A DNA stretch of 64,000 nucleotides, taken from the NCBI RefSeq assembly GCF_036013745.1, contig NZ_CP107880.1, positions 5,952,001-6,016,000 of the forward strand, in the 5' to 3' direction. The translations under genes and the position numbers were made by a program. The notes beneath the pieces were generated by a model. The model worked only from the letters and a program-made list of their open reading frames with translations. It did no database searches and was not told where the DNA came from. Below are positions 4,546-21,718 of this stretch, piece by piece; position 1 is the first letter of the stretch, and every line of letters begins with the position of its first letter. Origin of the DNA: Streptomyces sp. NBC_00483. Its GTDB lineage: Bacteria > Actinomycetota > Actinomycetes > Streptomycetales > Streptomycetaceae.

Positions 4546-4557
4546 CTACGCGCGTAG
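4546..4557. promoter_or_regulatory. CTACGCGCGTAG palindrome upstream of add
   Basis: Perfect 12-bp palindrome CTACGCGCGTAG, 16 nt before the add start and 4 nt upstream of a -10-like TAGAGT (4562-4567). The identical motif occurs upstream of deoC (15868-15879) and the purine-nucleoside phosphorylase gene (19360-19371), so it is a candidate operator of a shared nucleoside-salvage regulator. Confidence 0.7.
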
Positions 4558-4573
4558 GAGTTAGAGTGCGGAA

Positions 4574-5740
4574 ATGACGAGCCCGATCACCGCGAACCCC
4601 AACAGCCCCCGGGTGCCGACCGCCGAGCAGATCCGTCGCGCGCCCAAGGTGCTCCTGCACGACCACCTCGACGGCGGCCTGAGGCCCGGCACGATCGTCG
4701 ACCTGGCGCGCGAGCAGGGGTACGAGAACCTGCCGGAGGCCGACCCCGACAAGCTCGGCGTCTGGTTCCGTGAAGCGGCCGACTCCGGTTCCCTGGAGCG
4801 GTACTTGGAGACGTTCAGCCACACCTGTGCCGTCATGCAGACGCGCGAGGCGCTGTTCCGGGTCGCCGCCGAGTGCGCCGAGGACCTCGCCGAGGACGGC
4901 GTCGTCTACGCCGAGATCCGCTACGCCCCCGAGCAGCACCTGGAACAGGGGCTCACCCTCGAAGAGGTCGTCGAGGCGGTCAACGAGGGCTTCAGGGAGG
5001 GCGAGCGGCGCGCGAAGGAGAACGGCCACCGCATCCGCGTGGGCGCGCTCCTCACCGCGATGCGGCACGCGGCCCGCGCGCTGGAGATCGCCGAACTGGC
5101 CAACCGCTACCGCGACTTGGGTGTCGTCGGCTTCGACATCGCGGGCGCGGAGGCCGGCTTCCCGCCCACCCGCCACCTCGACGCCTTCGAGTACCTCAAG
5201 CGGGAGAACAACCACTTCACGATCCACGCGGGCGAGGCCTTCGGGCTGCCGTCCATCTGGCAGGCCCTCCAGTGGTGCGGTGCGGACCGGCTCGGGCACG
5301 GTGTGCGCATCATCGACGACATCAAGGTGGAGGACGACGGCAGCGTACAGCTGGGCCGCCTCGCCTCGTACGTGCGCGACAAGCGGATCCCGCTGGAGCT
5401 GTGCCCCTCGTCGAACCTGCAGACCGGTGCCGCGAGTTCCTACGGGGAGCACCCCATCGGGCTGCTGCGAAAGCTGCACTTCAGGGCGACGGTCAACACG
5501 GACAACCGGCTCATGTCCGGTACGTCGATGAGTCGCGAGTTCGAGCACCTGGTCGACGCATTCGACTACACGCTCGACGACATGCAGTGGTTTTCCGTCA
5601 ATGCGATGAAGTCAGCATTCATTCCTTTCGATGAACGACTGGCGATGATCAATGACGTGATCAAGCCCGGATATGCCGAGTTGAAATCCGAATGGCTGTT
5701 CCGTCAGACCGCTTCCACCAGCGGTTCTGTCGTCGAGTAG
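4574..5740 (+). CDS. add: Adenosine deaminase
   Basis: A 388-aa enzyme that hydrolyses adenosine or deoxyadenosine to inosine or deoxyinosine in purine salvage. The amidohydrolase zinc site is visible: HDHLDGG near residue 29 (family HxHxDG region), HAGE around residue 220, GHGVRI around 240, and the NTDNR segment near 310 for the last Asp ligand. The length fits the long actinobacterial type. The ATG at 4574 lacks a clear Shine-Dalgarno sequence and TAGAGT ends 6 nt upstream, which suggests a leaderless transcript. The CTACGCGCGTAG palindrome in its promoter links it to deoC and the nucleoside phosphorylase gene. Confidence 0.95.
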
Positions 5741-5887
5741 GGCCTTTTCGGGGGACGTTGGCGCGGTCGGGAACAGTTGTTCGCGGCCGCGTTTCCCGGC
5801 GGTTCGCTGTTTGCGGGCGCAGCGAAGGAATGTTTACGGTCGTGGACCGCTCATTCCCCCGTCATCGTCAAGAGGACGCATTTCACA

Positions 5888-6214
5888 ATGAAGCATTCTG
5901 CTGCCAAGACCCTCGGTGTCGCCGCTCTCGGAGCCGCTTTCGCCGCCGCCGGTGCCGGTGCCGCGAACGCTGCCCCGGCCGTCCCCGACGCGGCCGACAC
6001 CGTCGGATCCGTGACCTCCGCCCTCCCGCTGCAGGACGTGGCGTCGACGCTGCCCGCCGGCGCCGAGTCCCTGGCCGCCGGTCAGGGTGCGGTGGCCAAC
6101 GGCCTGAGCACGGCCACGCCCGTCGTGGACCAGGCCGCGAAGGGCGCCCTGCCGGTCGACGGCGACCCGGTCTCCGGCCTGCTCGGCGGCCTGCCGGTCG
6201 GTGGCCTCAGCTGA
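5888..6214 (+). CDS. Small secreted Ala/Gly-rich protein
   Basis: A 108-aa protein with a classical Sec signal peptide (MKHSAAKTLGVAALGAAF..., probable cleavage after ANAAPA). The mature part is Ala/Val/Gly/Pro-rich with no known catalytic motif. It resembles the secreted protein at 12017-12433 in composition and in phrases such as LPLQ/LPLP and GLSTAT/GVSTAL, so the two may be distant paralogs. I chose 5888 because it begins the signal peptide and follows AGAGGA. Function unknown. A strong hairpin follows the stop. Confidence 0.8.
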   Translation: MKHSAAKTLGVAALGAAFAAAGAGAANAAPAVPDAADTVGSVTSALPLQDVASTLPAGAESLAAGQGAVANGLSTATPVVDQAAKGALPVDGDPVSGLLGGLPVGGLS

Positions 6215-6232
6215 CCCGACCCACCGCACGAG

Positions 6233-6274
6233 CCGAAGGGGCGCACCCGCGATCACGCGGGCGCGCCCCTTCGG
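6233..6274. terminator. Bidirectional terminator hairpin
   Basis: Stem CCGAAGGGGCGC...GCGCCCCTTCGG, with a further CCCGCG/CGCGGG inner stem, between the convergent secreted-protein gene and the PspC gene. It has no long U tract on either side, as is usual in Streptomyces. Confidence 0.8.
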
Positions 6275-6292
6275 CGTGGGTGCGAACGGACG

Positions 6293-6493
6293 TCACCAGG
6301 CCTGGCGGACCTTGTTCTCACTCGGGAACATGATCCACAGCGCGATGTAGAGCAGGAACTGCGGGCCCGGCAGCAGGCACGAGACCAGGAAGATCACGCG
6401 CATCGTGGCCGCGGAGGTGCCGAAGCGCCGTGCCAGCGCTGCGCACACTCCGCCGATCATCCGTCCGTTGGTGGGGCGGGCAAGGGCGGTCAT
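6293..6493 (-). CDS. PspC-domain membrane protein
   Basis: A 66-aa protein that is essentially one PspC domain: GRMIGGVCAALARRFG, then hydrophobic VIFLVSCLLPGPQFLLYIALWIMFP. PspC domains occur in envelope-stress proteins and sit in the cytoplasmic membrane. A good GGAG-type ribosome-binding site (rev. comp. of ggctcctt) precedes the ATG. It stands alone, reads left, and ends at the shared hairpin. Its role is probably linked to membrane stress, but nothing nearby is a known partner. Confidence 0.88.
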   Translation of the reverse strand: MTALARPTNGRMIGGVCAALARRFGTSAATMRVIFLVSCLLPGPQFLLYIALWIMFPSENKVRQAW

Positions 6494-6580
6494 GGTTGGG
6501 CTCCTTCGCGAACCGTATGTCTTCGATGTGTGGTGCTTACGTCTTCGAATGTACGGCGACGGAGGGGCTTAAACGTCAGC

Positions 6581-7123
6581 TCACGGGGCTATGCCGACCC
6601 TGGAAATCGTCGGGGTCGGACCCTGAGCCGGCTCCTGCGGGGGGAGGGGATCGAGCTCGACCCTGCGGCGGAGCCGGGAGCGCAGGGTGGGCACGACGAG
6701 GAGATAGGTGAGCGCGACGCCCACCGTGTTCAGGAGCAGCGAGTCGATGTCCACGACCTGGCCCGGCACACCGGTCTGCAGCAGTTCGATGCCGAGCGAG
6801 ATCAGTGCGGCCATCGCGACCGTGCGCACAAGCGAACCCCACAGCGAAACGTAAAGCCGGCCGCCCGCGACGGGCAGGAGCACGCCGAGCGGGGCGAGCA
6901 GCACCAGGCCCTCGCCGAGCCGCACTGCCGCCTCACGCCAGCCGAGCGCGAGGTCGGAGCGGATGCCGGCCAAGGGGTGCAGGTTCGCCGCGCTGACCCA
7001 GGGCACGTCCAGGGGGCGCAGCGTGAACCAGGCAACGAATAGGAGATGCGCGGCGAGTAGGGCGATCCCTGCCGCACGGAAACGGACGGCGGCCCTTTGG
7101 CCGCCCGAGCGATGGCGCTGCAC
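6581..7123 (-). CDS. VanZ-like family membrane protein
   Basis: A 180-aa membrane protein with four hydrophobic helices and the VanZ-family pattern: FTLRP near the first loop, a middle helix region with ELLQTG, and DIDSLLLNTVGVALTYLL. VanZ was named for low-level teicoplanin resistance, but most chromosomal members have no assigned substrate. It follows the afsQ1-Q2-Q3 operon on the same strand after a 54-bp gap and may be read through from it. Confidence 0.85.
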   Translation of the reverse strand: MQRHRSGGQRAAVRFRAAGIALLAAHLLFVAWFTLRPLDVPWVSAANLHPLAGIRSDLALGWREAAVRLGEGLVLLAPLGVLLPVAGGRLYVSLWGSLVRTVAMAALISLGIELLQTGVPGQVVDIDSLLLNTVGVALTYLLVVPTLRSRLRRRVELDPLPPQEPAQGPTPTISRVGIAP

Positions 7124-7177
7124 GCACCCCTAGACGCCGGGCGCGGGAGGATCGGTTCCGCCGAGGTCGGGCCTTCG

Positions 7178-7780
7178 TCAGTTCAGAGTTCTCGTCGGGG
7201 CCGGGATCAGGCCCGGGCGGGCCTTCAGCGCCTCCGAGCAGGTGTATTCGCGGGGCGCGGCGTCGTCCGGGCCGCCGAGGACCACGTGCTCGTCGTCCTC
7301 CGCCGTGACCTCGCTGTTCGCGAACGTGCAGATGACCTGGGCCAGGGCGTAGGGGGACAGATCGGCCGGCGGCGCGTTCAGGCGCAGCGCGTCCGCGGGG
7401 TCGCCCTCGCGCGGGCCCGAGACCTTGAGGACGGAGCGTACGTCCGTCGTGTAGCCGGCCGTCTTCTCCTCGCTGGAGGGAGTCGCCGCCAGCTGCGCCA
7501 GGAGCTCCCGGGCCACCATGACACGGTCGGACGACTGGCCGCGCTCCAGCGTGATGGTCCGGTCGACCGTGACCAGCTGCGACGTACAGACCAGATAGAC
7601 CTGCACCGGGAACTCGCCGCCCGCCTGCGCCTCCACCTTGTCCGAGCCCGACAGGGAGCAGCCCACGCGCGTGGGCGCGGCGCCGAAGTCGGTCGGCACC
7701 TCCGTGGGACGGATCCCGCACCCGGTGAGCAGGAGCGAGGCGAGGCCGACGAGGACCCATGGGCGTACCCGGCGCGTCAC
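7178..7780 (-). CDS. afsQ3: AfsQ3 lipoprotein of the AfsQ1/AfsQ2 system
   Basis: A 200-aa predicted lipoprotein: RR-rich N-terminus, hydrophobic stretch and lipobox LLTGC with the lipidated Cys at residue 21. The rest is a soluble extracytoplasmic domain without a known motif. Its GTG start overlaps the afsQ2 stop as GTGA (7777-7780), so the two are translationally coupled. In S. coelicolor the third gene of the afsQ1-afsQ2 operon encodes a lipoprotein, AfsQ3, and this position matches. It may act as an accessory sensor for the kinase; that role is inference. Confidence 0.85.
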   Translation of the reverse strand: MTRRVRPWVLVGLASLLLTGCGIRPTEVPTDFGAAPTRVGCSLSGSDKVEAQAGGEFPVQVYLVCTSQLVTVDRTITLERGQSSDRVMVARELLAQLAATPSSEEKTAGYTTDVRSVLKVSGPREGDPADALRLNAPPADLSPYALAQVICTFANSEVTAEDDEHVVLGGPDDAAPREYTCSEALKARPGLIPAPTRTLN

Positions 7781-9366
7781 GTCGCGGCACCGCCTTCCCG
7801 CGCTTCCCTGGCGTCCTCCTCCGAGGCGGACGCCAGGGACTCCGCGTCCCGCGGCAGGTGCAGCGTGAACACGGCTCCCCCTTCGGGGGAGTTGGCGGCA
7901 CTGATCCGGCCGCCGTGGATACGCGCGTTCTCCATGGCGATGGAGAGGCCGAGGCCGCTGCCCTCCGAGCGGGGCCGCGAGGCGCTCGCCTTGAAGAAGC
8001 GGTCGAAGACGTGCGGCAGGACGTCATCGGGGATGCCCGGACCGTGGTCGCGTACGGAGATGACGACCTCCGAGCCCTCGCCGTGGCGTCCGTGCGACTC
8101 CACCCGCACCGAGACGCGCACGGGGGACCCGCCGTGCTTGAGCGCGTTGCCGATCAGGTTCGCGAGGATCACGTCGAGGCGGCGCGGGTCGAGGCGGGCC
8201 GAGATGCCGCGCTCGGCGTCGAGTTCGACGGCGTCCAGCCAGGCGCGGGCGTCGATGCAGGCGGTGATCTGGTCGGCGAGTTCCACGTCGTCGAGGACGA
8301 GCTTGGCGCTGCCCGCGTCGAAGCGGGTGACCTCCATCAGGTTCTCGACCAGGTCGTTCAGGCGCCGGGTCTCGCTGACCACGAGACGCACGGCCGGTTC
8401 GATCATGGGGTCGACCGAGCCGGTCTCGGCGTCGAGCTCCTCCTCCAGGACCTCCGTCACCGCGGTGATCGCGGTCAGCGGCGTGCGCAGCTCGTGCGAC
8501 ATGTCGGCGACGAAGCGGCGCGAGGACTCGTCGCGGGAGCTCATGTCCGCGACCTTCTTCTCCAGGTTCTCCGCCGTCTTGTTGAACGTACGGGAGAGCT
8601 CCGCGAGTTCGTCCGTGCCGGAGACGCGCAGCCGGGTGTCGAGCTTGCCCTCGCCGAGCCGGCGCGCGGCGACCCCCAGGCGGTGCACGGGCTTCAGCAC
8701 CGTCGTCGCGGCCGCCTGCGCGAGCAGTGCGGAGCCGACGAGGGCGAGCGCGGTGGCGATGCCGAGGGACCAGGCGAGCGAACCCATGTCCTTCGCCTCA
8801 GGCTCCAGGGACTTGAGCATGTAGCCCGTCGGCCCGTCGTCCACGGTGGCGCCGCCGACCAGGTACGGGGTGTCGTCCTGCGTGATCCGCTGCCAGTACA
8901 GGTGGTACGCGTGCTTGTCGCCGCCGTCGATCGGCTGCTTCTTGGTGACCGCGTCCCGCAGCGACTTCGGCACGTCGGCCACGGTGAAGGCGTCCAGGTC
9001 GGAATTGCCCACGACCCGGCGGCCGTCCTCGTCCTTCGCCATGAGCATCACGCTGAAGTGCTGGCTGCTGCCCGCCATCAGGTTCGCCGCGTGCTGCAAC
9101 TCGCCCTGCGTGGGCTGCTTGGGCAGCGCCGCCGCCCGGTTCTGCATCTCCTGCTTGAAGTCGCTGAGAGCGGAGTCCTGCGTGCGCGTGAGCACGGCCT
9201 CACGATTGAGCCAGTACGCGATCCCCGACGCGGACACCGCGGCCGTCAGCGCCACGAGCGCGAACACGACGACCAGGCGCAGCCGCAGGCTGGTGAAGCG
9301 CAGGCCGGCGAGGAGAGTCTTCTTGGCCGCCGCAGCGCCCCGGAGCTTGTCGTGCGGTTTCGTCAC
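7777..9366 (-). CDS. afsQ2: Two-component sensor histidine kinase AfsQ2
   Basis: A 529-aa membrane histidine kinase. Helix 1 (about 29-51) and helix 2 (about 195-218) flank a ~145-residue extracytoplasmic sensor domain; a HAMP linker follows (about 217-272), then HisKA with phospho-acceptor His291 in DMSHELRTPL and a HATPase domain with N, G1 (DHGPGIP) and G2 (GSGLGLS) boxes. I chose the GTG at 9366 because it overlaps the afsQ1 stop as GTGA. It is the partner of AfsQ1; in S. coelicolor this pair responds to nitrogen-rich conditions and affects antibiotic production. Confidence 0.93.
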   Translation of the reverse strand: MTKPHDKLRGAAAAKKTLLAGLRFTSLRLRLVVVFALVALTAAVSASGIAYWLNREAVLTRTQDSALSDFKQEMQNRAAALPKQPTQGELQHAANLMAGSSQHFSVMLMAKDEDGRRVVGNSDLDAFTVADVPKSLRDAVTKKQPIDGGDKHAYHLYWQRITQDDTPYLVGGATVDDGPTGYMLKSLEPEAKDMGSLAWSLGIATALALVGSALLAQAAATTVLKPVHRLGVAARRLGEGKLDTRLRVSGTDELAELSRTFNKTAENLEKKVADMSSRDESSRRFVADMSHELRTPLTAITAVTEVLEEELDAETGSVDPMIEPAVRLVVSETRRLNDLVENLMEVTRFDAGSAKLVLDDVELADQITACIDARAWLDAVELDAERGISARLDPRRLDVILANLIGNALKHGGSPVRVSVRVESHGRHGEGSEVVISVRDHGPGIPDDVLPHVFDRFFKASASRPRSEGSGLGLSIAMENARIHGGRISAANSPEGGAVFTLHLPRDAESLASASEEDAREAREGGAAT

Positions 9367-10040
9367 TGAGGCGTGTCCAGCCGGTAGCCCACCCCGCGCA
9401 CCGTACGGATCAGGGTCGGCGACGACGGCACGTCCTCGACCTTCGCGCGCAGCCGCTGCACACACGCGTCGACGAGCCGCGAGTCACCGAGGTAGTCGTG
9501 CTCCCACACCAGGCGCAGCAACTGCTGCCGGGACAGCGCCTGTCCGGGCCGCCGGCTCAGCTCGAGCAGCAAGCGCAGCTCGGTGGGCGTCAGTTGCAGG
9601 TCCTCGCCGTTCTTCGTCACCGTCATCGCGGCACGGTCGATCACCAACGAGCCGAACGTCGCGGCATCGTTGGCCTCCCGCTCGCCGCGCCGCAGCACCG
9701 CGCGGATCCGCGCGTCGAGCACGCGCCCCTGTACCGGCTTCACGACATAGTCGTCGGCACCGGACTCCAGGCCCACCACGACGTCGATGTCGTCGCTGCG
9801 CGCGGTCAGCAGGATGATCGGCAGTTGGTCGGTGCGCCGGATGCGCCGGCACACCTCGAAACCGTCGATGCCGGGCAGCATCACATCGAGGACGATCAGA
9901 TCGGGCCGCTGCTCGCGCAGCAGCTTCAGACCGTCCTCTCCGGTGGCAGCGGTGGCGACCCGGTGGCCCTGGCGCGTAAGTGACAGCTCCAGGGCCGTAC
10001 GGATGGCGTCGTCGTCCTCGATCAGCAACAGGGAAGGCAC
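9363..10040 (-). CDS. afsQ1: OmpR-type response regulator AfsQ1
   Basis: A 225-aa OmpR/PhoB-type regulator: receiver domain with acidic pocket EDDD, phospho-acceptor Asp52 in IVLDVMLPG, switch Thr in LLTAR and Lys in YVVKP, then a winged-helix DNA-binding domain ending VRTVRGVGYRL. I chose the GTG at 10040 because it puts the acceptor at Asp52, the residue described for S. coelicolor AfsQ1; an in-frame ATG lies at 10049. It is first gene of the afsQ1-Q2-Q3 operon, divergent from sigQ, with a GTGAC-N6-GTGAC box between them. Confidence 0.93.
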   Translation of the reverse strand: MPSLLLIEDDDAIRTALELSLTRQGHRVATAATGEDGLKLLREQRPDLIVLDVMLPGIDGFEVCRRIRRTDQLPIILLTARSDDIDVVVGLESGADDYVVKPVQGRVLDARIRAVLRRGEREANDAATFGSLVIDRAAMTVTKNGEDLQLTPTELRLLLELSRRPGQALSRQQLLRLVWEHDYLGDSRLVDACVQRLRAKVEDVPSSPTLIRTVRGVGYRLDTPQ

Positions 10041-10179
10041 AAGCGCCATTCTGGCCCATCAGGGGCCTTCAGTTCGACCGAGTGTGCCCTTCAGGTGCGG
10101 GGAAGAGGCCCGGGAGAGCCCCGGCGGAGTCCCGTCGGGGCCGGTTCCTCCACGCCTGCTCCCTATTACGGGAGCCGCT

Positions 10180-10195
10180 GTGACAGGCCTGTGAC
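10180..10195. promoter_or_regulatory. Putative AfsQ1-binding box upstream of sigQ
   Basis: Direct repeat GTGAC-AGGCCT-GTGAC exactly matches the published AfsQ1 consensus GTnAC-n6-GTnAC. It lies between afsQ1 and sigQ, about 110 nt upstream of the sigQ start, consistent with AfsQ1 activation of sigQ. Confidence 0.8.
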
Positions 10196-10304
10196 AGTCG
10201 ACGGACACCGTCATGAAGTCGACCCGGCAAGCTTTTGGTCATCGCGAAGAACGATCGCGACGACGACGCAGAAGTATTCGGTACTCCACGACGGGGGGCG
10301 CGAG

Positions 10305-11069
10305 ATGAACACGCTGCACAGCACCACCTCAAGCGCGGTTGTCACGCGTCTGCACGACATGGGCCGAGTGGTTTCCGAGCGTCACGAGAAGTCCGGTGCC
10401 GTGAGCGGGCGGGGGTGCGCTCGCGGCGCCGGGCGTCAGCACACCGGGATCATGACGGTGGTTGACACGCGGGAAACAGTGACCGAGGGGGGTCACGGGG
10501 GAGCCGCGTACAGGGAGGACTCGGGGGAGCAGCGCAGGACGTCCTTGTCGGAGGCCGAGTTCACGGCCTACGTCCAGGATCGCCGCGCCTCCCTGTACGC
10601 AACCGCCTACCACCTGACCGGTGACCGTTTCGAGGCCGAGGACCTGCTGCAGAGCGCACTGTTCTCGACGTACCGGGCCTGGGACCGCATCAGCGACAAG
10701 GCGGCGGTCGGGGGCTACCTCCGCCGCACCATGACGAACCTGCACATCAGCGCGTGGCGCCGCCGCAAGCTGAACGAGTACCCGACCGAGGAGCTGCCGG
10801 AGACGGCCGGCGACACGGACGCGATGCGCGGCACCGAGCTGCGCGCGGTCCTGTGGCAGGCGCTGGCCCGGCTGCCCGAACTCCAGCGCACCATGCTGGT
10901 CCTTCGTTACTACGAGGGCCGCACGGACCCGGAGATCGCGGACATCCTCGACATCAGCGTGGGCACGGTGAAGTCCAGCATCTGGCGCTCGCTGCGGCGA
11001 CTGCGCGAGGACGAGGTGCTGAGCTTCGGCCGTGACCAGGAGGAGTCCTTCGGCGAGCTCGTCGCCTGA
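10305..11069 (+). CDS. sigQ: SigE-family ECF sigma factor SigQ
   Basis: A 254-aa sigma factor of the Streptomyces SigE-like group. After a ~80-residue low-complexity N-terminus come region 2 (YATAYHLTGDRFEAEDLLQS, with AYRAWDRI-type helix) and region 4 (LPELQRTMLVLRYYEG, DPEIADILDISVGTVKSSIWRSL). The ATG at 10305 follows a GGGGGG ribosome-binding site. In S. coelicolor sigQ lies divergently beside afsQ1 and is an AfsQ1 target that counteracts its effect on antibiotic production; gene order and the AfsQ1 box here match. Confidence 0.92.
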   Translation: MNTLHSTTSSAVVTRLHDMGRVVSERHEKSGAVSGRGCARGAGRQHTGIMTVVDTRETVTEGGHGGAAYREDSGEQRRTSLSEAEFTAYVQDRRASLYATAYHLTGDRFEAEDLLQSALFSTYRAWDRISDKAAVGGYLRRTMTNLHISAWRRRKLNEYPTEELPETAGDTDAMRGTELRAVLWQALARLPELQRTMLVLRYYEGRTDPEIADILDISVGTVKSSIWRSLRRLREDEVLSFGRDQEESFGELVA

Positions 11070-11140
11070 AGGCCGGGGGAACGGGGCCCTGTTCGGGGGA
11101 GCGGGGTTCCGGTACGGGGGAGCAGTAGGGGGGAGTGGGC

Positions 11141-11173
11141 GGGACCGGAAGGCCGGGGGGTCTTTCCGGTCCC
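11141..11173 (+). terminator. Terminator hairpin after sigQ
   Basis: Stem GGGACCGGAA...TTCCGGTCCC with a 13-nt loop, 72 nt past the sigQ stop. Confidence 0.7.
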
Positions 11174-11192
11174 GTTCCGTGTGTCCGGCCCG

Positions 11193-11255
11193 CCGTGGTT
11201 GCGGACTCGGGGCTCTGCCCCGGACCCCGCTGCTCAAGCGCCGCAGGGGCTTGAT
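11193..11255 (-). repeat. Dispersed intergenic repeat, copy 2
   Basis: Reverse-orientation copy with the core GGGGCTCTGCCCCGGACCCC and the flanks GTTGCGGACTCG and GGGGCTTGAT. It lies between the convergent sigQ and kinase-like genes. Confidence 0.85.
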
Positions 11256-11258
11256 TGG

Positions 11259-11891
11259 CTACGCGGCGCGCGCCTTCACGCAACGCCCCGCGGCGGCCGC
11301 CGCCACGCGGCCCAACGCCTCCTCCTTGCCACAGGCGTGCGCGCCGAGCGCCACCTGCCGAGCCACGATGGACCGCTCCGTCCGCATCAGGCGCCAGCCA
11401 CGCCGCAGCAGGAACGGCACCGACTTGCGCCCCTCCTTGAGGTCACGCAGCAGCCGGCGACGGAACGTCGTCGACGGACGCCCGCGCAGGCACAGCGCAT
11501 CGGCGAGCACCCCCACCTCCCGGCAGCGCTCCACGATGTCCGCCGCGAAGATGCCCTCGGCGATGAACAGCGGCGTGCGCTCGATGTCCAGCGTCTCCTC
11601 GCCCACACGCGAGCTGGAGGAGATGTCGTAGACGGGAACGCTCGTCCGACCCTTCGCACAGAGCGCCACGATCGCGGCGACCGCGACCTCGGCGTCCCAG
11701 GAGAGCGGCGAGTCCCAGTCGATGTCCGAAGTGCCCGGCACCAGCGGCAGCGTGGGGTCCCCGGCCTCCTTGTAGAAGTCGTCGAGGCACAGGACGGGCA
11801 GCCCGGAGCGGGCCGCGAAGGAGGACTTGCCGGAGCCCGAGGGGCCGGAGAGCAGGACGACCCGTGTCGGTATCGGAGGATGCGAACTCAC
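11259..11891 (-). CDS. P-loop uridine kinase-like ATP-binding protein
   Basis: A 210-aa P-loop protein with Walker A GPSGSGKSSF at residues ~16-25 and LDDFYK, a signature of the uridine/phosphoribulokinase family. The remaining Arg-rich C-terminus is compatible with a nucleoside or small-molecule kinase. I chose the GTG at 11891 (VSSHPPIPTRVVLLSG) since upstream residues do not look native. The nearby add, deoC and nucleoside phosphorylase genes make nucleoside phosphorylation plausible; the substrate is not proven. Confidence 0.75.
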   Translation of the reverse strand: MSSHPPIPTRVVLLSGPSGSGKSSFAARSGLPVLCLDDFYKEAGDPTLPLVPGTSDIDWDSPLSWDAEVAVAAIVALCAKGRTSVPVYDISSSSRVGEETLDIERTPLFIAEGIFAADIVERCREVGVLADALCLRGRPSTTFRRRLLRDLKEGRKSVPFLLRRGWRLMRTERSIVARQVALGAHACGKEEALGRVAAAAAGRCVKARAA

Positions 11892-11967
11892 GAGACACCA
11901 GTGTGAGGCATGACGACCGCGCCGCCTCCCCGCGTGGTGCCGTTGTGGCACGCACCACGCCAACTAC

Positions 11968-11993
11968 CCTGTGTATCTACATGATTACACAGG
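11968..11993. promoter_or_regulatory. Inverted repeat CCTGTGTA-N10-TACACAGG
   Basis: An AT-rich inverted repeat in the 125-bp gap between the divergent kinase-like gene and the secreted-protein gene. It lies 24 nt upstream of the ATG at 12017, where a -35/-10 would lie, so it is a candidate operator. No regulator can be assigned. Confidence 0.55.
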
Positions 11994-12016
11994 CGAAAGG
12001 TTTCGGGCGGAACACC

Positions 12017-12433
12017 ATGGCACGACACGCAGAACAGACATCCTCGTCCTCCGTGCGGCGCACCCTGATGCGCGTAGGACTCACCGTGACCGCGGCCGGT
12101 GCGGTCGTCGCGGGCGGCGGCGTCGCCTCGGCGAGCGCGGCGCCGATCCCGCTGCCGCAGTCGGCGACCGGCGACTCCAACGTCGACGCGGCGGCCGACG
12201 GCGTCTCGACGGCGCTCAACTCGGCCACGGCGAACGGGCTCGGCACGCTGAAGAAGCTGCCGCTGGACCCGCTGGCCGGGACGGGAGTCGACCCGCTGGA
12301 CAACTCGGTCGGCACGCAGGTCGCGGACTTCGTGCCGGTCAGCACGGCGGCAGTCACCGGGCCGGTGGCTTCCGGTGCGTCGCTGGAGGAGCTGCCCGTG
12401 GTGGGTCCCGTGACGGGTGTGCTGCCAGGCTGA
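12017..12433 (+). CDS. Small secreted protein
   Basis: A 138-aa exported protein: Arg-containing N-terminus, hydrophobic core LTVTAAGAVVAGGG and a likely cleavage after ASASAAP. The mature part is rich in Ala, Val, Asp and Pro with no catalytic motif. It resembles the secreted protein at 5888-6214. I chose 12017; an in-frame ATG at 11981 lies inside the inverted repeat and is less likely. Function unknown. Confidence 0.75.
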   Translation: MARHAEQTSSSSVRRTLMRVGLTVTAAGAVVAGGGVASASAAPIPLPQSATGDSNVDAAADGVSTALNSATANGLGTLKKLPLDPLAGTGVDPLDNSVGTQVADFVPVSTAAVTGPVASGASLEELPVVGPVTGVLPG

Positions 12434-12440
12434 GTCCTAC

Positions 12441-12495
12441 GTCGCGGGGCTCTGCCCCGGACCCCGCGGGCTCTCGTCCAAAAGCGGGGCTTGAT
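12441..12495 (-). repeat. Dispersed intergenic repeat, copy 3 (variant)
   Basis: Reverse-orientation copy with core GGGGCTCTGCCCCGGACCCC. The distal flank is the variant GGGCTCTCGTCCAAAAGCGGGGCTTGAT-type, shared with copy 6. It lies between convergent gene ends. Confidence 0.8.
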
Positions 12496-12510
12496 GTGCC
12501 GGACCGGCTT

Positions 12511-12552
12511 GAAAGGCCCGGCTCCTCGTGGAGTGGAGGAGCCGGGCCTTTC
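12511..12552. terminator. Perfect 17-bp-stem terminator
   Basis: GAAAGGCCCGGCTCCTC and its exact complement separated by 8 nt, between the convergent secreted-protein and aldehyde dehydrogenase genes. With A and T residues at the stem ends it can act in both directions. Confidence 0.85.
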
Positions 12553-12562
12553 GCGTTGGTGC

Positions 12563-13459
12563 TCAGTACGCGGAGCCGGACGCGCCCAGCGAACCCGTCG
12601 GGTGCCAGACCGTCTTGGTTTCCAGGAAGTGCGTCAGGCGGTCCGTGCCCGGGTCCGCCGTGAAGTCCTCCACAGGCTGTGGACGACGCACGCGCTTCAG
12701 ATTGTCGGCGGCCGCGATCTCGAGCTGCTTCGCCAACTCGGGGTCGGCGCCCGTCAGATCGATCCCGTTCACGTCCTGGTGCGCGGCGAGCGAAGGCGCG
12801 ATCTCCGACGCCTTGCCGGACAGGATGTTCACGACGCCGCCCGGCACGTCCGAGGTCGCGAGCACCTCGCCGAGGGAGAGCGCCGGCAGCGGGGACTTCT
12901 CGCTCGTGATCACGACGACCGTGCTGCCGGTCGCGATGACCGGGGCGATCACCGAGATCAGGCCGAGGAAGGACGAGTCCTGGGGTGCCAGGGCCGCCAC
13001 GACGCCGGTCGGTTCGGGCGTGGAGAGGTTGAAGAACGGGCCCGCGACGGGGTTCGCCCCGCCGACGACCTGGCCGATCTTGTCGGTCCAGCCCGCGTAC
13101 CAGACCCAGCGGTCGATCGCGGCGTCCACGACGGCCCCGGCCTTCGACTTGCCGATGCCCTCTGCCTCGGAGACCTCGCGCACGAACTGCTCGCGGCGGC
13201 CCTCCAGCATCTCGGCGACGCGGTACAGGACCTGACCGCGGTTGTACGCCGTCGCGCCCTGCCAGCCGCCGAACGCCTTGCGGGCGGCGACCACGGCGTC
13301 ACGGGCGTCCTTGCGGGAGGAGAGCGGCGCGTTGGCCAGCCACTCGCCGCTCTTGCCATCGGTCACTTCGTACACCCGGCCGCTCTCGGAACGCGGGAAC
13401 TTCCCGCCGACGTACAGCTTGTAGGTCTTGAAGACGCTCAGACGGTTGGGCTCAGACAT
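12563..13459 (-). CDS. Truncated aldehyde dehydrogenase-family protein without catalytic Cys
   Basis: A 298-aa protein homologous to the N-terminal NAD-binding part of aldehyde dehydrogenases (AFGGWQG, YYAGW-like WVWYAGWTDKIG, GSTVVVI, PGGVVNILSG). Typical members have about 480 residues; here the GQxC Cys is absent and the oxyanion Asn region PWNFP is replaced by APQDSSF. The tail is unique. Its ATG overlaps the end of the full-length dehydrogenase gene by 8 nt (ATGTCTGA), so the two are probably co-translated. It is probably a non-catalytic partner subunit. No frameshift or stop suggests decay. Confidence 0.85.
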   Translation of the reverse strand: MSEPNRLSVFKTYKLYVGGKFPRSESGRVYEVTDGKSGEWLANAPLSSRKDARDAVVAARKAFGGWQGATAYNRGQVLYRVAEMLEGRREQFVREVSEAEGIGKSKAGAVVDAAIDRWVWYAGWTDKIGQVVGGANPVAGPFFNLSTPEPTGVVAALAPQDSSFLGLISVIAPVIATGSTVVVITSEKSPLPALSLGEVLATSDVPGGVVNILSGKASEIAPSLAAHQDVNGIDLTGADPELAKQLEIAAADNLKRVRRPQPVEDFTADPGTDRLTHFLETKTVWHPTGSLGASGSAY

Positions 13460-14888
13460 CGAGGTAGGCCTCCAGACCGTGACGGCCACCCTCGCGGCCG
13501 AAGCCCGACTCCTTGTAGCCGCCGAAGGGCGAGGTCGGGTCGAACTTGTTGAACGTGTTGGCCCAGACGACCCCGGCGCGGAGCTTGTTCGCGACCGCGA
13601 GGATGCGCGAGCCCTTCTCCGTCCAGATGCCGGCCGAGAGCCCGTACTGCGAGTTGTTGGCCTTGGCGACGGCCTCGTCCGGCGTGCGGAAGCTGAGCAC
13701 GGACAGGACCGGGCCGAAGATCTCGTCGCGGGCGATGGTGTGCGCCTGCGTGACGTTCGTGAAGAGCGTCGGCGCGAACCAGTAGCCGGAGGACGGGAGT
13801 TCACAGGGCGCCGACCAGCGCTCGGCGCCCTCGGCCTCGCCCTGCTCGGTGAGCGCGGTGATCCGGGCCAGCTGCTCCGCGGAGTTGATGGCGCCGATGT
13901 CCGTGTTCTTGTCGAGCGGGTCGCCGAGGCGGAGGGTCGACAGGCGGCGCTTCAGCGAGTCGAGCAGTTCGTCCTGGATCGACTCCTGGACGAGGAGGCG
14001 GCTGCCTGCGCAGCAGACCTGGCCCTGGTTGAAGAAGATGCCCGTGACGATGCCCTCGACGGCCTGGTCGATGGGGGCGTCGTCGAAGACGATGTTCGCG
14101 CCCTTGCCGCCGAGTTCGAGCGTCACCTTCTTGTCCGTACCGGCGACGGTGCGGGCGATCTCCTTGCCGACGGCCGTGGAGCCGGTGAAGGCCACCTTGT
14201 TCACGTCGGGGTGGGCGACGAGCGCCGCGCCCGAATCGCCGTACCCGGGAAGGATGTTGACGACGCCCTTCGGTAGGCCCGCCTGGCGGCAGATGTCCGC
14301 GAAGAAGAGGGCGGAGAGCGGGGTCGTCTCGGCGGGCTTCAGGACGACCGTGTTGCCGGTCGCGAGCGCCGGGGCGATCTTCCACGCGAGCATCAGGAGC
14401 GGGAAGTTCCAGGGGATGACCTGGCCCGCGACGCCGAGCGCCTTCGGGTTCGGCCCGAATCCCGCGTGGTCGAGCTTGTCCGCCCAGCCCGCGTAGTAGA
14501 AGAAGTGCGCGGCGACCAGGGGGAGGTCCGCGTCGCGCGTCTCCTTGATCGGCTTGCCGTTGTCGAGCGTCTCGAGGACGGCCAGCTCGCGGCTGCGCTC
14601 CTGGATGATGCGCGCGATACGGAAGAGGTACTTGCCCCGCTCGGCGCCGGGCAGCGCCGACCACTTCTCGAAGGCCTTGCGGGCCGCCTTCACGGCGCGC
14701 TCGACGTCGGCCTCACCGGCCTGCGCGACCTCGGAGAGAACCTCCTCGGTGGCGGGGGAGACGGTCTTGAAGACCTTGCCGTCGGCGGCGTCGGTGAACT
14801 CGCCGTCGATGAACAGGCCGTAGGAGGGTGCGATGTCGACGACCGAGCGGGACTCGGGCGCCGGAGCGTACTCAAATGCAGATGCCAT
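13452..14888 (-). CDS. Aldehyde dehydrogenase (full length)
   Basis: A 478-aa NAD(P)-dependent aldehyde dehydrogenase with all key residues: Asn161 in PWNFPLLM, Glu258 in LELGGKGANIVF, Cys292 in GQVCCAGSRL, and ENxxFGP-like EIFGPVLSV. Its start lies 6 nt after the deoC stop, so it belongs to the deoC operon. DeoC yields acetaldehyde and glyceraldehyde 3-phosphate, so this enzyme probably oxidises the acetaldehyde; that substrate is an inference from context. Confidence 0.93.
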   Translation of the reverse strand: MASAFEYAPAPESRSVVDIAPSYGLFIDGEFTDAADGKVFKTVSPATEEVLSEVAQAGEADVERAVKAARKAFEKWSALPGAERGKYLFRIARIIQERSRELAVLETLDNGKPIKETRDADLPLVAAHFFYYAGWADKLDHAGFGPNPKALGVAGQVIPWNFPLLMLAWKIAPALATGNTVVLKPAETTPLSALFFADICRQAGLPKGVVNILPGYGDSGAALVAHPDVNKVAFTGSTAVGKEIARTVAGTDKKVTLELGGKGANIVFDDAPIDQAVEGIVTGIFFNQGQVCCAGSRLLVQESIQDELLDSLKRRLSTLRLGDPLDKNTDIGAINSAEQLARITALTEQGEAEGAERWSAPCELPSSGYWFAPTLFTNVTQAHTIARDEIFGPVLSVLSFRTPDEAVAKANNSQYGLSAGIWTEKGSRILAVANKLRAGVVWANTFNKFDPTSPFGGYKESGFGREGGRHGLEAYLDV

Positions 14889-14894
14889 GGGTGA

Positions 14895-15848
14895 TCAGTC
14901 CACCGTCACGTAGTCGGGACCGGAGTAGCGTCCTGTGGCCAGCTTCTGACGCTGCATCAGCAGGTCGTTCAGGAGGCTGGAGGCGCCGAAGCGGAACCAG
15001 TGGTTGTCGAGCCAGTCCTCGCCCGCGGTCTCGTTCACGATGACCAGGAACTTGATGGCGTCCTTGGAGGTGCGGATGCCGCCCGCGGGCTTCACGCCGA
15101 CCTGTACCCCGGTGGTGGCGCGGAAGTCGCGTACGGCTTCGAGCATGAGGAGGGTGTTGGCGGGGGTGGCGTTGACGCCGACCTTGCCCGTCGACGTCTT
15201 GATGAAGTCGGCCCCGGCCAGCATGCCGATCCAGCTCGCGCGCCGGATGTTGTCGTACGTCGAGAGCTCGCCGGTCTCGAAGATGACCTTCAGGCGGGCG
15301 GCGCCGGAGGCCTCCTTGACCGCGCGGATCTCCTCGTAGACCTTCATGTAGTTGCCCGCGAGGAAGGCGCCGCGATCGATGACCATGTCGATCTCGTCCG
15401 CCCCGGCCGCCACGGCCTCGCGTACGTCCCCGAGCTTCACGTCGAGGGCGGCGCGGCCCGCCGGGAAGGCGGTGGCCACGGAGGCGACCTTGACGTCCGT
15501 ACCGGCGACGGCGGCCTTCGCGGTGGCCACCATGTCGGGGTAGACGCAGACCGCCGCGGTGCGGGGAGTCGTGCGGTCGGTGGGGTCCGGGTTGACCGCC
15601 TTCGCGCCGAGGGCCCGGACCTTGCCCGGGGTGTCGGAGCCTTCGAGGGTCGTCAGGTCGATCATCGAGATGGCCAGGTCGATGGCGTACGCCTTCGCCG
15701 TGGTCTTGATGGAACGGGTCCCGAGCGAAGCGGCGCGCGCCTCCAGGCCGACCGCGTCGACGCCGGGCAACCCGTGCAGGAAGCGGCGCAGCGTGCTGTC
15801 GGACGCGGTGGCGTCGCTGAGAGCGGGTGCGGGTGCAGAACTGGGCAT
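14895..15848 (-). CDS. deoC: Deoxyribose-phosphate aldolase
   Basis: A 317-aa class I aldolase that splits 2-deoxyribose 5-phosphate into acetaldehyde and glyceraldehyde 3-phosphate. The Schiff-base Lys lies in DFIKTSTGK and the second catalytic Lys in GVKPAGGIR; EIDMVIDRGAF is also typical. It is longer than the ~220-260 residues of E. coli or Bacillus DeoC because of an N-terminal extension. A GTG at 15854 (GTG ACC ATG) is an alternative start; no Shine-Dalgarno sequence precedes either. First gene of the deoC-aldehyde dehydrogenase operon, with CTACGCGCGTAG 20 nt upstream. Confidence 0.94.
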   Translation of the reverse strand: MPSSAPAPALSDATASDSTLRRFLHGLPGVDAVGLEARAASLGTRSIKTTAKAYAIDLAISMIDLTTLEGSDTPGKVRALGAKAVNPDPTDRTTPRTAAVCVYPDMVATAKAAVAGTDVKVASVATAFPAGRAALDVKLGDVREAVAAGADEIDMVIDRGAFLAGNYMKVYEEIRAVKEASGAARLKVIFETGELSTYDNIRRASWIGMLAGADFIKTSTGKVGVNATPANTLLMLEAVRDFRATTGVQVGVKPAGGIRTSKDAIKFLVIVNETAGEDWLDNHWFRFGASSLLNDLLMQRQKLATGRYSGPDYVTVD

Positions 15849-15867
15849 GGTCACGAGGGGAGCATAT

Positions 15868-15879
15868 CTACGCGCGTAG
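15868..15879. promoter_or_regulatory. CTACGCGCGTAG palindrome upstream of deoC
   Basis: Perfect 12-bp palindrome, identical to those before add and the nucleoside phosphorylase gene. On the minus strand its right end merges with a -10-like TAGATA before the deoC start. Confidence 0.7.
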
Positions 15880-15913
15880 CGGCTGTACAGGTCGGGGTTT
15901 ACGGTTCCGGGTG

Positions 15914-15975
15914 CCGTGGTTGCGGACTCGGGGCTCCGCCCCGGACCCCGCGCCTCAATCGCCGGCGGGGCTTGA
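15914..15975 (-). repeat. Dispersed intergenic repeat, copy 4
   Basis: Reverse-orientation copy with core GGGGCTCCGCCCCGGACCCC and flank GCCTCAATCGCCGGCGGGGC. Unlike the other copies it lies in a divergent gap (deoC and the PH-domain gene), near both promoters. Confidence 0.85.
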
Positions 15976-16058
15976 TTTTGCCCAGCCCCTTGATTCGCGG
16001 GCCGCTTGCTTGCCCAGCTGATGGATGCGGCTATTGACGGGTCGGGCACAATCGAGCC

Positions 16059-16679
16059 ATGACGAGCAGCCAGACCACGCCCCCGCAGGCACGTGACCGG
16101 ATCTATCGGTCTCCCGCCGGTATCGCCGGTGGTGTCGTGCTGATCCTGATCGGGGCCTGGATGGGCGGCGACGCCGTGGCGTACGGGGACGGGCGGACGC
16201 CGTGGACGGTGCTGGCCGGGCTGCTGTTCGTGGTGCCGCTCGTCGTGGCGTTCACCATCAGGCCGGCCGTCTTCGGTAACGAGGAGCGGCTGCGCCTGCG
16301 CAACCCGTTCCGTGACGTCTCGCTGCCGTGGTCCGCGGTCTCGGGCTTCAAGTCCGGGTACTCGAACGAGGTCGTCGACGAGGCGGGCACCAAGTACCAG
16401 CTCTGGTCCATCCCGGTGTCGCTGCGCGGCCGGCGCAAGGTGCAGCGCCAGCAGATGCGCGCCGCCAAGGGGGGCCGCACGGCCACCGGAGCCAGCGGCC
16501 TGCCGGTGACCGAGCAGCGCTCGACCGGCGACCAGGCCATGGACGAACTGCGCGAACTCCACGAGGCGCATGCCGAGGCCGAGACGACGCAGGGCGCCAC
16601 CAAGGTCCGCTGGGCGTACGAGATCATCGCTCCCGCACTCGTGGGCGCGGTACTCCTCGTCGTACTCCTCGCCATTTGA
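16059..16679 (+). CDS. PH-domain-containing membrane protein
   Basis: A 206-aa protein with two N-terminal membrane helices (about 20-40 and 48-66), a bacterial PH-like domain (RPAVFGNEERLRLRNPFRDVSLPWSAVSGF, then SNEVVDEAGTKYQLWSIP), a charged linker and a C-terminal helix (ALVGAVLLVVLL). The pattern RNPFRxxxLPWxxV is typical of actinobacterial PH-domain proteins. Function unknown. Its stop codon overlaps the first base of dispersed-repeat copy 5. Confidence 0.82.
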   Translation: MTSSQTTPPQARDRIYRSPAGIAGGVVLILIGAWMGGDAVAYGDGRTPWTVLAGLLFVVPLVVAFTIRPAVFGNEERLRLRNPFRDVSLPWSAVSGFKSGYSNEVVDEAGTKYQLWSIPVSLRGRRKVQRQQMRAAKGGRTATGASGLPVTEQRSTGDQAMDELRELHEAHAEAETTQGATKVRWAYEIIAPALVGAVLLVVLLAI

Positions 16680-16722
16680 GCCCCGCCGGCGTTTGAGGCG
16701 CGGGGTCCGGGGCGGAGCCCCG
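16679..16722 (+). repeat. Dispersed intergenic repeat, copy 5
   Basis: Forward copy AGCCCCGCCGGCGTTTGAGG plus core GGGGTCCGGGGCGGAGCCCC, starting at the stop codon of the PH-domain gene. It is followed after 7 nt by copy 6 in the same orientation. Confidence 0.85.
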
Positions 16723-16729
16723 ATCTTTT

Positions 16730-16793
16730 AAGCCCCGCCTTTGGGCGAGAGCCCGCGGGGTCCGGGGCGGAGCCCCGCGGCCGCAACCCCGGC
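16730..16793 (+). repeat. Dispersed intergenic repeat, copy 6 (variant)
   Basis: Forward copy with a variant left flank (AAGCCCCGCCTTTGGGCGAG, like copy 3) and the common core GGGGTCCGGGGCGGAGCCCC and CCGCAACCCCGG tail. It lies between the convergent PH-domain and mutase genes. Confidence 0.85.
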
Positions 16794-16803
16794 CTACGCC
16801 GAG

Positions 16804-18459
16804 CTAGATACCCGCCGCCCCCGCAAGGTCCCGCTTGATCGCCGCGAGGCGTTCCGTCGCGGTGACCCGGGCCGCGGGCAACGCGTCCCGACCCCCGACC
16901 GCCACCACGACCTCCAAATAACACTTCAGCTTCGGCTCGGTCCCCGACGGCCGCACCACGACCCGCGCCCCGTCGAGCGTGTACCGCAACCCGTCCGTGG
17001 GCGGCAGCCCTCCCGACCCTTCGGCGAGATCGTCCGCGCGGGTCACCGCGAGCCCCGCCAGCTCCACCGGCGGAGTCTCCCGGAGCCGGCGCATCGCGTC
17101 CGCGATGACCGACAGGTCCTCCACCCGGACGCTCAACTGGTCCGTGGCGTGCAGCCCGTGCGCGAGAGCCAGGTCGTCGAGCGCGTCCAGGAGCGTACGG
17201 CCCTGGGACTTCAGCTCGCTCGCCAGCTCGGTGACGAGCAGCGCGGCCGTGATGCCGTCCTTGTCGCGCACGCCCTCGGGGTCGACGCAGTAGCCGAGCG
17301 CCTCCTCGTAGCCGTAGCGCAGGCCCTCGACGCGGGCGATCCACTTGAAGCCGGTCAGCGTCTCCTCGTACGGGAGTCCCGCCGCCTCGGCGATCCGGCC
17401 GAGCAGCGAGGACGACACGATCGACTCGGCGAGGACACCGGTCACGCCCCGCTTCACGAGGTGCGCCGCCAGCAGTGCGCCGACCTCGTCGCCGCGCAGC
17501 ATCCGCCACTCACCGCCGTCGGGCACGGCCACCGCGCAGCGGTCCGCGTCCGGGTCGTTGGCGATGATCAGGTCCGGGGTCTCACCCTGCGCGCGGGCCG
17601 TCGCGAAGGACAGGTCCATCGCCCCCGGCTCCTCCGGGTTCGGGAACGCGACCGTGGGGAAGTCCGGGTCGGGCTCGGCCTGTTCGGGCACGAGGACCGG
17701 CTCGGGGAAGCCCGCGCGGGCGAAGGCGGCGAGGAGCGTGTCCTTGCCGACGCCGTGCATCGCCGTGTAGACGGTGCGGGCCGAGCGGGCGGAGCCCGGA
17801 GCCAGGACCGCGTCCGTGCGTGCCAGGTAGGCGTTCAGGACGTCGTCGCCCAGCGTCTCCCAACCGCTCTCCGCACGCGGCACGTCGTCCAGCGACGCCA
17901 CCGCGTCGATCTCCGCCGCGATCTCCGCGTCCGCCGGCGGCACGATCTGCGAGCCGTCGCCGAGGTACACCTTGTAGCCGTTGTCGCGCGGCGGGTTGTG
18001 CGAGGCCGTGACCTCGACGCCCGCGACCGCGCCCAGGTGCCGTATGGCGAAGGCGAGCACGGGGGTGGGCAGCGGGCGGGGGAGGACCGCGGCGCGCAGC
18101 CCGGCCCCCACCATCACCGCCGCCGTGTCGCGCGCGAAGTCCGCCGACTTGTGCCGCGCGTCGTAGCCGATGACGACCGGACCGTCCGTCTGGCCCTTCG
18201 CCTTCAGATACGCCGCCAGGCCCGCGGCCGCGCGGATGACCACCGCGCGGTTCATCCGCATCGGGCCCGCGCCCAGCTCGCCGCGCAGCCCGGCCGTGCC
18301 GAACTGCAGCCTTCCGGAGAAGCGCTCGCCGATCGACTCCAGATCCCCGGCCTCGATGAGCTTGGCCAGCTCCTCGCGGGTCTCCGGGTCCGGGTCCTCC
18401 GCCAGCCAGGTCTTCGCCCGGTCGAGCAGTTCGCTGCCAGATACGGTCACGGTTCGCAT
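16804..18459 (-). CDS. Phosphosugar mutase (phosphoglucomutase/phosphomannomutase family)
   Basis: A 551-aa alpha-D-phosphohexomutase. The catalytic phosphoserine loop is TASHNPPRDNGYK, the metal loop DPDADRCA, the sugar-binding loop lies in GFKWIARVEG, and the phosphate loop is RPSGTEPKLK. The gene begins 50 nt after the purine-nucleoside phosphorylase gene on the same strand. In that position such enzymes commonly act as phosphopentomutase, turning (deoxy)ribose 1-phosphate into the 5-phosphate that DeoC uses; ManB/PmmB-type activity is also possible. Confidence 0.9.
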   Translation of the reverse strand: MRTVTVSGSELLDRAKTWLAEDPDPETREELAKLIEAGDLESIGERFSGRLQFGTAGLRGELGAGPMRMNRAVVIRAAAGLAAYLKAKGQTDGPVVIGYDARHKSADFARDTAAVMVGAGLRAAVLPRPLPTPVLAFAIRHLGAVAGVEVTASHNPPRDNGYKVYLGDGSQIVPPADAEIAAEIDAVASLDDVPRAESGWETLGDDVLNAYLARTDAVLAPGSARSARTVYTAMHGVGKDTLLAAFARAGFPEPVLVPEQAEPDPDFPTVAFPNPEEPGAMDLSFATARAQGETPDLIIANDPDADRCAVAVPDGGEWRMLRGDEVGALLAAHLVKRGVTGVLAESIVSSSLLGRIAEAAGLPYEETLTGFKWIARVEGLRYGYEEALGYCVDPEGVRDKDGITAALLVTELASELKSQGRTLLDALDDLALAHGLHATDQLSVRVEDLSVIADAMRRLRETPPVELAGLAVTRADDLAEGSGGLPPTDGLRYTLDGARVVVRPSGTEPKLKCYLEVVVAVGGRDALPAARVTATERLAAIKRDLAGAAGI

Positions 18460-18509
18460 TCCTTCGGACGTACGGATACGACGACGGTCCCGGCGGGGAC
18501 CGGACGGGA

Positions 18510-19334
18510 TCAGATCTTCGCGAGGACCTTGGTCAGCAGGTCGCCCATGGCGGAGGCCGAGTCGCGGCCCGCCTGGAGGACCTCTTCGTGGTTGAGCGGC
18601 TCGCCGGAGAGGCCCGCCGCCAGGTTCGTCACCAGGGAGATGCCGAGCACCTCCGCGCCCGCCTCACGGGCCGCGATGGCCTCCAGGGTGGTGGACATGC
18701 CGACCAGGTCGGCGCCGAGGATGCCGGCCATCCGGACCTCGGCGGGGGTCTCGTAGTGCGGGCCCGTGAACTGGGCGTACACGCCCTCTTCCAGGCTCGG
18801 GTCGATCTCCTTGCACAGCGCGCGGAGCCGCGGCGAGTACAGGTCGGTGAGGTCGACGAAGTTGGCGCCGACGATCGGTGAGGCCGCGGTCAGGTTGATG
18901 TGGTCGGAGATGAGCACCGGCTGGCCGGGGCGCATGCCCTGGCGCAGACCGCCACAGCCGTTGGTGAGCACGATGGTCTTGCAGCCCGCTGCGGCGGCCG
19001 TGCGCACGCCGTGCGCGACGGCGGCGACGCCGCGGCCCTCGTAGAAGTGCGTACGGCCCAGGTAGACCAGGGCGCGCTTCTCGCCGACCTGGTACGAGCG
19101 GACCGTGCCGCCGTGCCCTGCCACAGCGGCGCCGGTGAATCCGGGCAGTTCGGTGAAGGGGAACTCGGCGGCGGGCTCGCCCAGCGCCTCGGAGGCGGGC
19201 GCCCAGCCGGAGCCCATCACGAGGGCGACGTCGTGGGTCTCGGCGCCCGTCAGCTCGCGCAGCCGCGCGGCGGCGGCGTCGGCGGCGGCGTACGGGTCGG
19301 CCAGGACGTGGTCCGGAGTAAGAGAAGCGTTCAC
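18510..19334 (-). CDS. Purine-nucleoside phosphorylase (trimeric PNP family)
   Basis: A 274-aa enzyme cleaving purine nucleosides with phosphate to free base and (deoxy)ribose 1-phosphate. Family signatures are MGSGWAP near the start, LGRTHFYEG with the phosphate-binding His, LTNGCGGL, the base-site Glu in [14 protein letters not shown], and [15 protein letters not shown] chose the GTG at 19334; a -10-like TACCCT on the minus strand ends 7 nt before it, with CTACGCGCGTAG further upstream, suggesting a leaderless transcript. Forms an operon with the mutase. Confidence 0.93.
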
Positions 19335-19359
19335 GCCGACGAGGGTAGCCTGTCGCTGC

Positions 19360-19371
19360 CTACGCGCGTAG
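19360..19371. promoter_or_regulatory. CTACGCGCGTAG palindrome upstream of the nucleoside phosphorylase gene
   Basis: Perfect 12-bp palindrome 25 nt upstream of the GTG start, identical to the add and deoC copies; 12 nt separate it from the -10-like TACCCT. Confidence 0.7.
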
Positions 19372-21644: not shown

Positions 21645-21718
21645 TCCTGTGCGAACAGAATCGGTAAATCGGCGCAAACTGCTGAAACCAGACGGTCGTT
21701 GGGGTTACTGTCAGTTTC

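Follow-up and report, generated by a model that had tools for sequence, protein, structure and literature searches.

The 12-bp palindrome CTACGCGCGTAG and its variants very probably form the operator of a nucleoside uptake and breakdown regulon across the family Streptomycetaceae, to be bound by a dimeric protein that is most likely a repressor released by an inducer. Because it is kept at nucleoside promoters in nearly every sampled family member, the palindrome very probably stands for a single on/off control common to these genes. We describe below its copies in the window (the whole analysed stretch of 64,000 nucleotides), its conservation, its placement in the promoters and the proteins that may read it.

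Palindromes and nucleoside genes in the window

Three exact copies of CTACGCGCGTAG lie in the window and precede add, deoC and the purine nucleoside phosphorylase (PNP) gene, respectively (Table 1). As an earlier note on this DNA had reported, they are identical and the only exact copies there. None arose in 100 dinucleotide shuffles of the window. Throughout the genome of 10.24 Mb the exact sequence occurs three times, all in the window, and its reversed control does not occur at all. The genome is that of a Streptomyces, the genus to which all of the 80 best named matches to one of its proteins belong, the top one at 99%. With one mismatch allowed, the genome has 26 places, the three exact ones included, against 37 for the control. 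This is no excess, so the near-exact members of the regulon are recognised by position and conservation and not by number.

The earlier note had placed the palindromes 16–26 nt before the start codons. The range fits add (16 nt) and PNP (25 nt) but not deoC, which from its GTG at 15854 encodes 319 aa and has the palindrome 13 nt away from that codon and 19 nt away from an in-frame ATG. Of the −10-like hexamers proposed at the same time, TAGAGT of add and TAC.CT of PNP are backed by conservation across genomes, whereas TAGATA has to be given up for TATGCT, the conserved box of deoC.

Two neighbouring genes extend the pathway. The aldehyde dehydrogenase gene, 6 nt past deoC, probably shares its operon, as the short spacing suggests, and the 25 best of its 44 matching families are aldehyde dehydrogenase-type models, none reaching its own cut-off. 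Judged by operon position and superfamily, the enzyme could oxidise the acetaldehyde made by DeoC. By the same two marks, the phosphosugar mutase encoded past PNP likely performs the phosphopentomutase step; no NCBIfam model scored above its cut-off for it in a search at E ≤ 1e-20.

Table 1. Proposed operators, promoter boxes and genes in the window, with one split regulator gene of another genome (last line).
Feature	Position	Strand	Basis or remark
Operator CTACGCGCGTAG of add	4546..4557	+	exact match; 17 distinct exact-site add promoters aligned
add −10-like box TAGAGT	4562..4567	+	4 nt past palindrome, 6 nt ahead of ATG; apparently leaderless
add, adenosine deaminase	4574..5740	+	NCBIfam NF006847, 644 bits, cut-off 412; ATG 4574
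Aldehyde dehydrogenase	13452..14888	-	6 nt past deoC; 44 family matches
deoC, deoxyribose-phosphate aldolase	14895..15854	-	TIGR00126, 184 bits (computed on 14895-15839), cut-off 117
deoC −10-like box TATGCT	15861..15866	-	1 nt past palindrome, 6 nt ahead of GTG
Operator CTACGCGCGTAG of deoC	15868..15879	-	exact match, cross-genome conservation
PGM/PMM-superfamily phosphosugar mutase	16804..18459	-	50 nt past PNP; Pfam PF02878, PF02879, PF02880, PF00408
PNP, purine nucleoside phosphorylase	18510..19334	-	TIGR01698, 331 bits, cut-off 303; GTG 19334
PNP −10-like box TACCCT	19342..19347	-	12 nt past palindrome, 7 nt ahead of GTG
Operator CTACGCGCGTAG of PNP	19360..19371	-	exact match, cross-genome conservation
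DeoR-family regulator, candidate	21719..22678	+	HTH_DeoR + DeoRC; PF08220 and PF00455 above cut-off
Split DeoR-family gene (L273)	G176:C2:5624202-5625114		

Conservation and reach of the probable regulon

The palindrome is present in all 101 sampled genomes of the genus, with 383 copies compared with 56 for the reversed pattern. At the family level, 149 of 150 sampled genomes have it, and the sole exception (G109) has the variants CTACGCGCGTTA at PNP and CTACGCGAGTAG at deoC. Outside the family it is found in 10 of 268 sampled genomes of the class, with 12 copies altogether. Nine of these 12 were inspected and no nucleoside gene was among the reading frames found next to them, some having no frame found at all. 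Likewise, the outside-family PNP loci show no perfect palindrome resembling the site (12 judgeable loci from 11 genomes, 14 fetched).

Within the family, the surroundings of 113 distinct exact copies were read, and 107 of these copies lie at nucleoside genes. PNP accounts for 46, the ATPase gene of a BMP-type ABC transporter for 27, add for 17, deoC for 10, a paralogue of add for 6 and ushA for 1. These 113 make a non-random sample, being mostly the first-listed copy of each genome plus stretches fetched partly for their extra copies. Among the six elsewhere, two lie within unrelated coding sequence (L071, L093), one precedes a HAD hydrolase gene by 16 nt and another is 93 nt into its locus. 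Exact copies within unrelated coding sequence are what chance would also produce, but chance as the origin of the whole pattern is excluded in practice by the observed conservation.

Loci picked for where the DeoR-family gene lies, and so independently of the motif, agree with this count. The PNP site is there with at most two mismatches in 12 of 12 genomes from nine genera besides the window's own, and within one mismatch in 11 of them. The deoC site has at most one mismatch in 8/8 and the add site is exact in 2/2. The single nucleoside regulon proposed in the earlier note is thus strongly supported at the genus and family levels and in the motif-independent loci, and the motif is neither equally common at unrelated genes nor missing from close relatives.

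Judged by sequence, the regulon is larger than the three genes first proposed. The gene of a secreted 5′-nucleotidase (ushA) has CTACGCGCGTTG upstream in 29 loci, that of the window's own genome included, and lacks it in one; these 30 were returned from the 40 genomes with a match among 41 searched. The lipoprotein gene of the BMP-type transporter (bmp) is preceded by an identical CTACGCGCGTTA in 14 of 15 evaluable loci, one more of the 16 tried being cut off, and in the own genome.

The remaining promoters of this transport and salvage group are less uniform. For the transporter ATPase gene, the site is exact in 8 of 16 loci, and these eight were already known to have it when the stretches were picked; five of the other eight have a one-mismatch site, three have none, and the own genome has no site within three mismatches upstream of this gene. 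Thymidine phosphorylase (deoA) has its own site, CTATGCG(C/T)GTAG, in 5/16 loci and in the own genome, and in the other 11 genomes no site directly precedes it. Several of these site-less loci have upstream sequence that resembles cdd coding sequence, which suggests that deoA there shares an operon with the transporter; at least two (L358, L362) do not.

In a paralogue of adenosine deaminase, 60–62% identical to add, the first codons themselves (MTATRV) contain the palindrome, always in the same place. There, in L026, L051, L052, L053, L112 and L166, one stretch of bases serves both as operator and as coding sequence. Counted over the whole family, operator sequences occur at eight kinds of promoter, of which the own genome shows six.

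Weaker members are uncertain, as one-mismatch sites show no genome-wide excess and the candidate site of iunH is not conserved. The iunH site is found in 1 of 6 loci, that of the own genome, and not at an 88% identical orthologue or at four homologues of 50–52% identity, so iunH was rejected. A GntR gene was also rejected, as the one-mismatch site that precedes it (L015) reads as inside the end of the upstream gene. Further one-mismatch sites stand before genes that read, from their protein starts, as a nicotinamidase, an NCS2 permease, an NCS1 permease and an aminotransferase (L010, L150, L153, L157), for which no membership is claimed.

Site anatomy and proposed mode of action

Cross-genome alignments put the palindrome 4 nt from the conserved −10 box at add, 1 nt at deoC and 12 nt at PNP. 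In all three promoters the start codon follows 6–7 nt past the box, as in leaderless transcripts. The gap at ushA, to the box TAGGCT, is the same as at add. At bmp and deoA the −10 box itself appears to include the last bases of the palindrome.

The closeness of the sites to −10 boxes would also suit recognition by a sigma factor, the palindrome then being a promoter element and no operator. This reading is highly improbable, as such an element agrees poorly with the two-fold symmetry, the varying distance to the box and the placement inside a coding region. A repressor operator fits better, given the symmetry, the variable distance and a site in the path of the polymerase.

An activator site, from which the bound protein would recruit polymerase to these promoters, deserves more weight and is still unlikely. 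The site is upstream of the box at add, deoC, PNP and ushA, and the promoters have, by reading, no obvious strong −35 box, both as an activator would have it. On the other hand, the overlap with the box at bmp and deoA, the site within the coding region of the add paralogue and a spacing of 1, 4 or 12 nt or none all speak against an activator. Our preference for repression over activation draws only on the position of the sites.

From the sequence, position, conservation and gene content of the sites, we infer the following course of repression and induction. The palindrome would be occupied by a DNA-binding protein in dimeric form, most likely a repressor, and since the site lies on the −10 box or shortly before it, this protein would block RNA polymerase. 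A nucleoside, or a sugar phosphate derived from it, would release the repressor. The release would switch on the secreted 5′-nucleotidase, the BMP-type ABC importer with deoA, adenosine deaminase, the nucleoside phosphorylase with the mutase, and deoC with the aldehyde dehydrogenase.

The resulting pathway would run from dephosphorylation of extracellular nucleotides through import, deamination, phosphorolysis and sugar-phosphate mutation to aldolase cleavage and, probably, aldehyde oxidation.

Candidate regulators and known systems

The earlier note named the DeoR-family gene at 21719 as the candidate regulator, and this part of its proposal is not established, strongly supported as the single regulon is. 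The protein would be a repressor that senses a sugar phosphate such as deoxyribose 5-phosphate, which we regard as possible but doubtful. By synteny its gene would correspond to SCO4920 of S. coelicolor. It combines a DeoR-type helix-turn-helix with a DeoRC sensor domain, and among solved structures it has a single match at E ≤ 0.001, to the effector domain of the repressor of the E. coli deoxyribose operon (7l6l, E 3e-8).

Moreover, 149 of 150 family genomes have one match each to this protein at E ≤ 1e-80. Its DNA-binding domain is nearly invariant, with 56 unchanged positions among the first 60 over 47 loci. For comparison, the TetR gene next to it, which was found in 15 of those 47 loci, reaches 14 invariant residues of 20 in its best block.

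Several observations weigh against the DeoR-family protein. Its own promoter has no exact palindrome in 48 loci scored for exact copies, an operator at the regulator's own promoter being typical though not required. By domains and best NCBIfam models it belongs with the AgaR/GlpR-type regulators of sugar-phosphate metabolism, no model reaching its cut-off, and the E. coli DeoR model is far behind (75.9 bits, cut-off 244). In genome G176 the gene is in two overlapping pieces (Table 1), by mutation or sequencing error, yet the genome has four copies of the motif. The protein is spread more widely than the motif: beyond the family, 25 of the 268 genomes of the class have a match at E ≤ 1e-50.

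Some of its outside-family orthologues may point the same way. Four of the seven loci read (L267, L268, L269, L174) adjoin apparent sugar ABC-transporter genes; they contain GATCGG/CCGATC repeats but lack such a palindrome, and the neighbours differ at the remaining three. The four proteins are 66–70% identical to the candidate over the aligned part. Recognition helix residues 32–41 are identical in two of them (G494, G296) and changed at residue 40 in the others. G494 and G296 have A42I and changes in the preceding turn, and their genomes have no exact palindrome.

The GATCGG/CCGATC elements, common to the upstream regions at these four loci, are perhaps a different operator. The window has seven two-mismatch matches to them against 9.1 expected, so this argument against the DeoR-family protein is suggestive only and the target of the protein may have changed. 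The promoter of the DeoR-family gene (window 21650-21719, about 70 bp) shows good conservation throughout the family but lacks the palindrome, and may therefore be the target of something else.

No regulator gene carrying the exact site was found. A MarR-family gene has CTACGCACGTAG in its divergent upstream region (L152) and could, in principle, encode a regulator that controls itself. Over 80 Streptomyces loci, CTACGCACGTAG occurs within one mismatch in 58, exactly in 51. However, it goes with the divergent GH25 lysozyme gene: both are present in 53 loci and neither in 16, against 5 with the site only and 6 with the GH25 gene only. Most site-less loci still keep the sequence nearest the MarR gene. 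As the site follows the lysozyme gene, the MarR gene was set aside as the regulator, a role we consider most improbable for it.

The site between the GH25 and MarR genes (L152:1501-1512; own genome C1:6344809; L274-L353) marks a possible extra member of the regulon. A bolder reading would assign the operator to an undescribed Streptomycetaceae regulator, not to the nearby DeoR-family protein, and let it control also the secreted GH25 lysozyme via CTACGCACGTAG, so coupling nucleic-acid scavenging to lysis. We hold this to be rather unlikely. If true, cell-wall breakdown and the use of the released DNA and RNA would be switched together.

The E. coli DeoR/CytR nucleoside regulon does the same job, with phosphorylases, deoC and transport under common control. 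Unlike it, the Streptomyces genes are scattered and include a BMP-type ABC importer and a secreted 5′-nucleotidase. The operators differ as well: that of E. coli DeoR is the 16-bp palindrome TGTTAGAATTCTAACA, which has no match in the window at up to three mismatches.

Bacillus thuringiensis belongs to a different phylum from Streptomyces. Its NupR, of the GntR/HutC family, is reported as a dedicated regulator of nucleoside transport (PMC9430930). Both systems concern the control of nucleoside transport.

Nucleoside regulons are of a known kind; for this operator, and for its membership across the family, the open-access literature covered appears to hold no description. That coverage, of titles, abstract beginnings and a few passages (PMC3224704 and PMC4848846 among them), gave no description of the operator; subscription papers and regulon databases were outside its scope. 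The matches to the exact letters or to the 10-bp core concern, by their listing, DNA structure, GapR and other subjects.

In biological terms, a main antibiotic-producing bacterial family very probably has here a compact and testable regulon, which would serve the use of released nucleosides, for example from lysing mycelium. The operator sequences can be the bait for the regulator, and they offer a natural switch, perhaps a nucleoside-responsive one.
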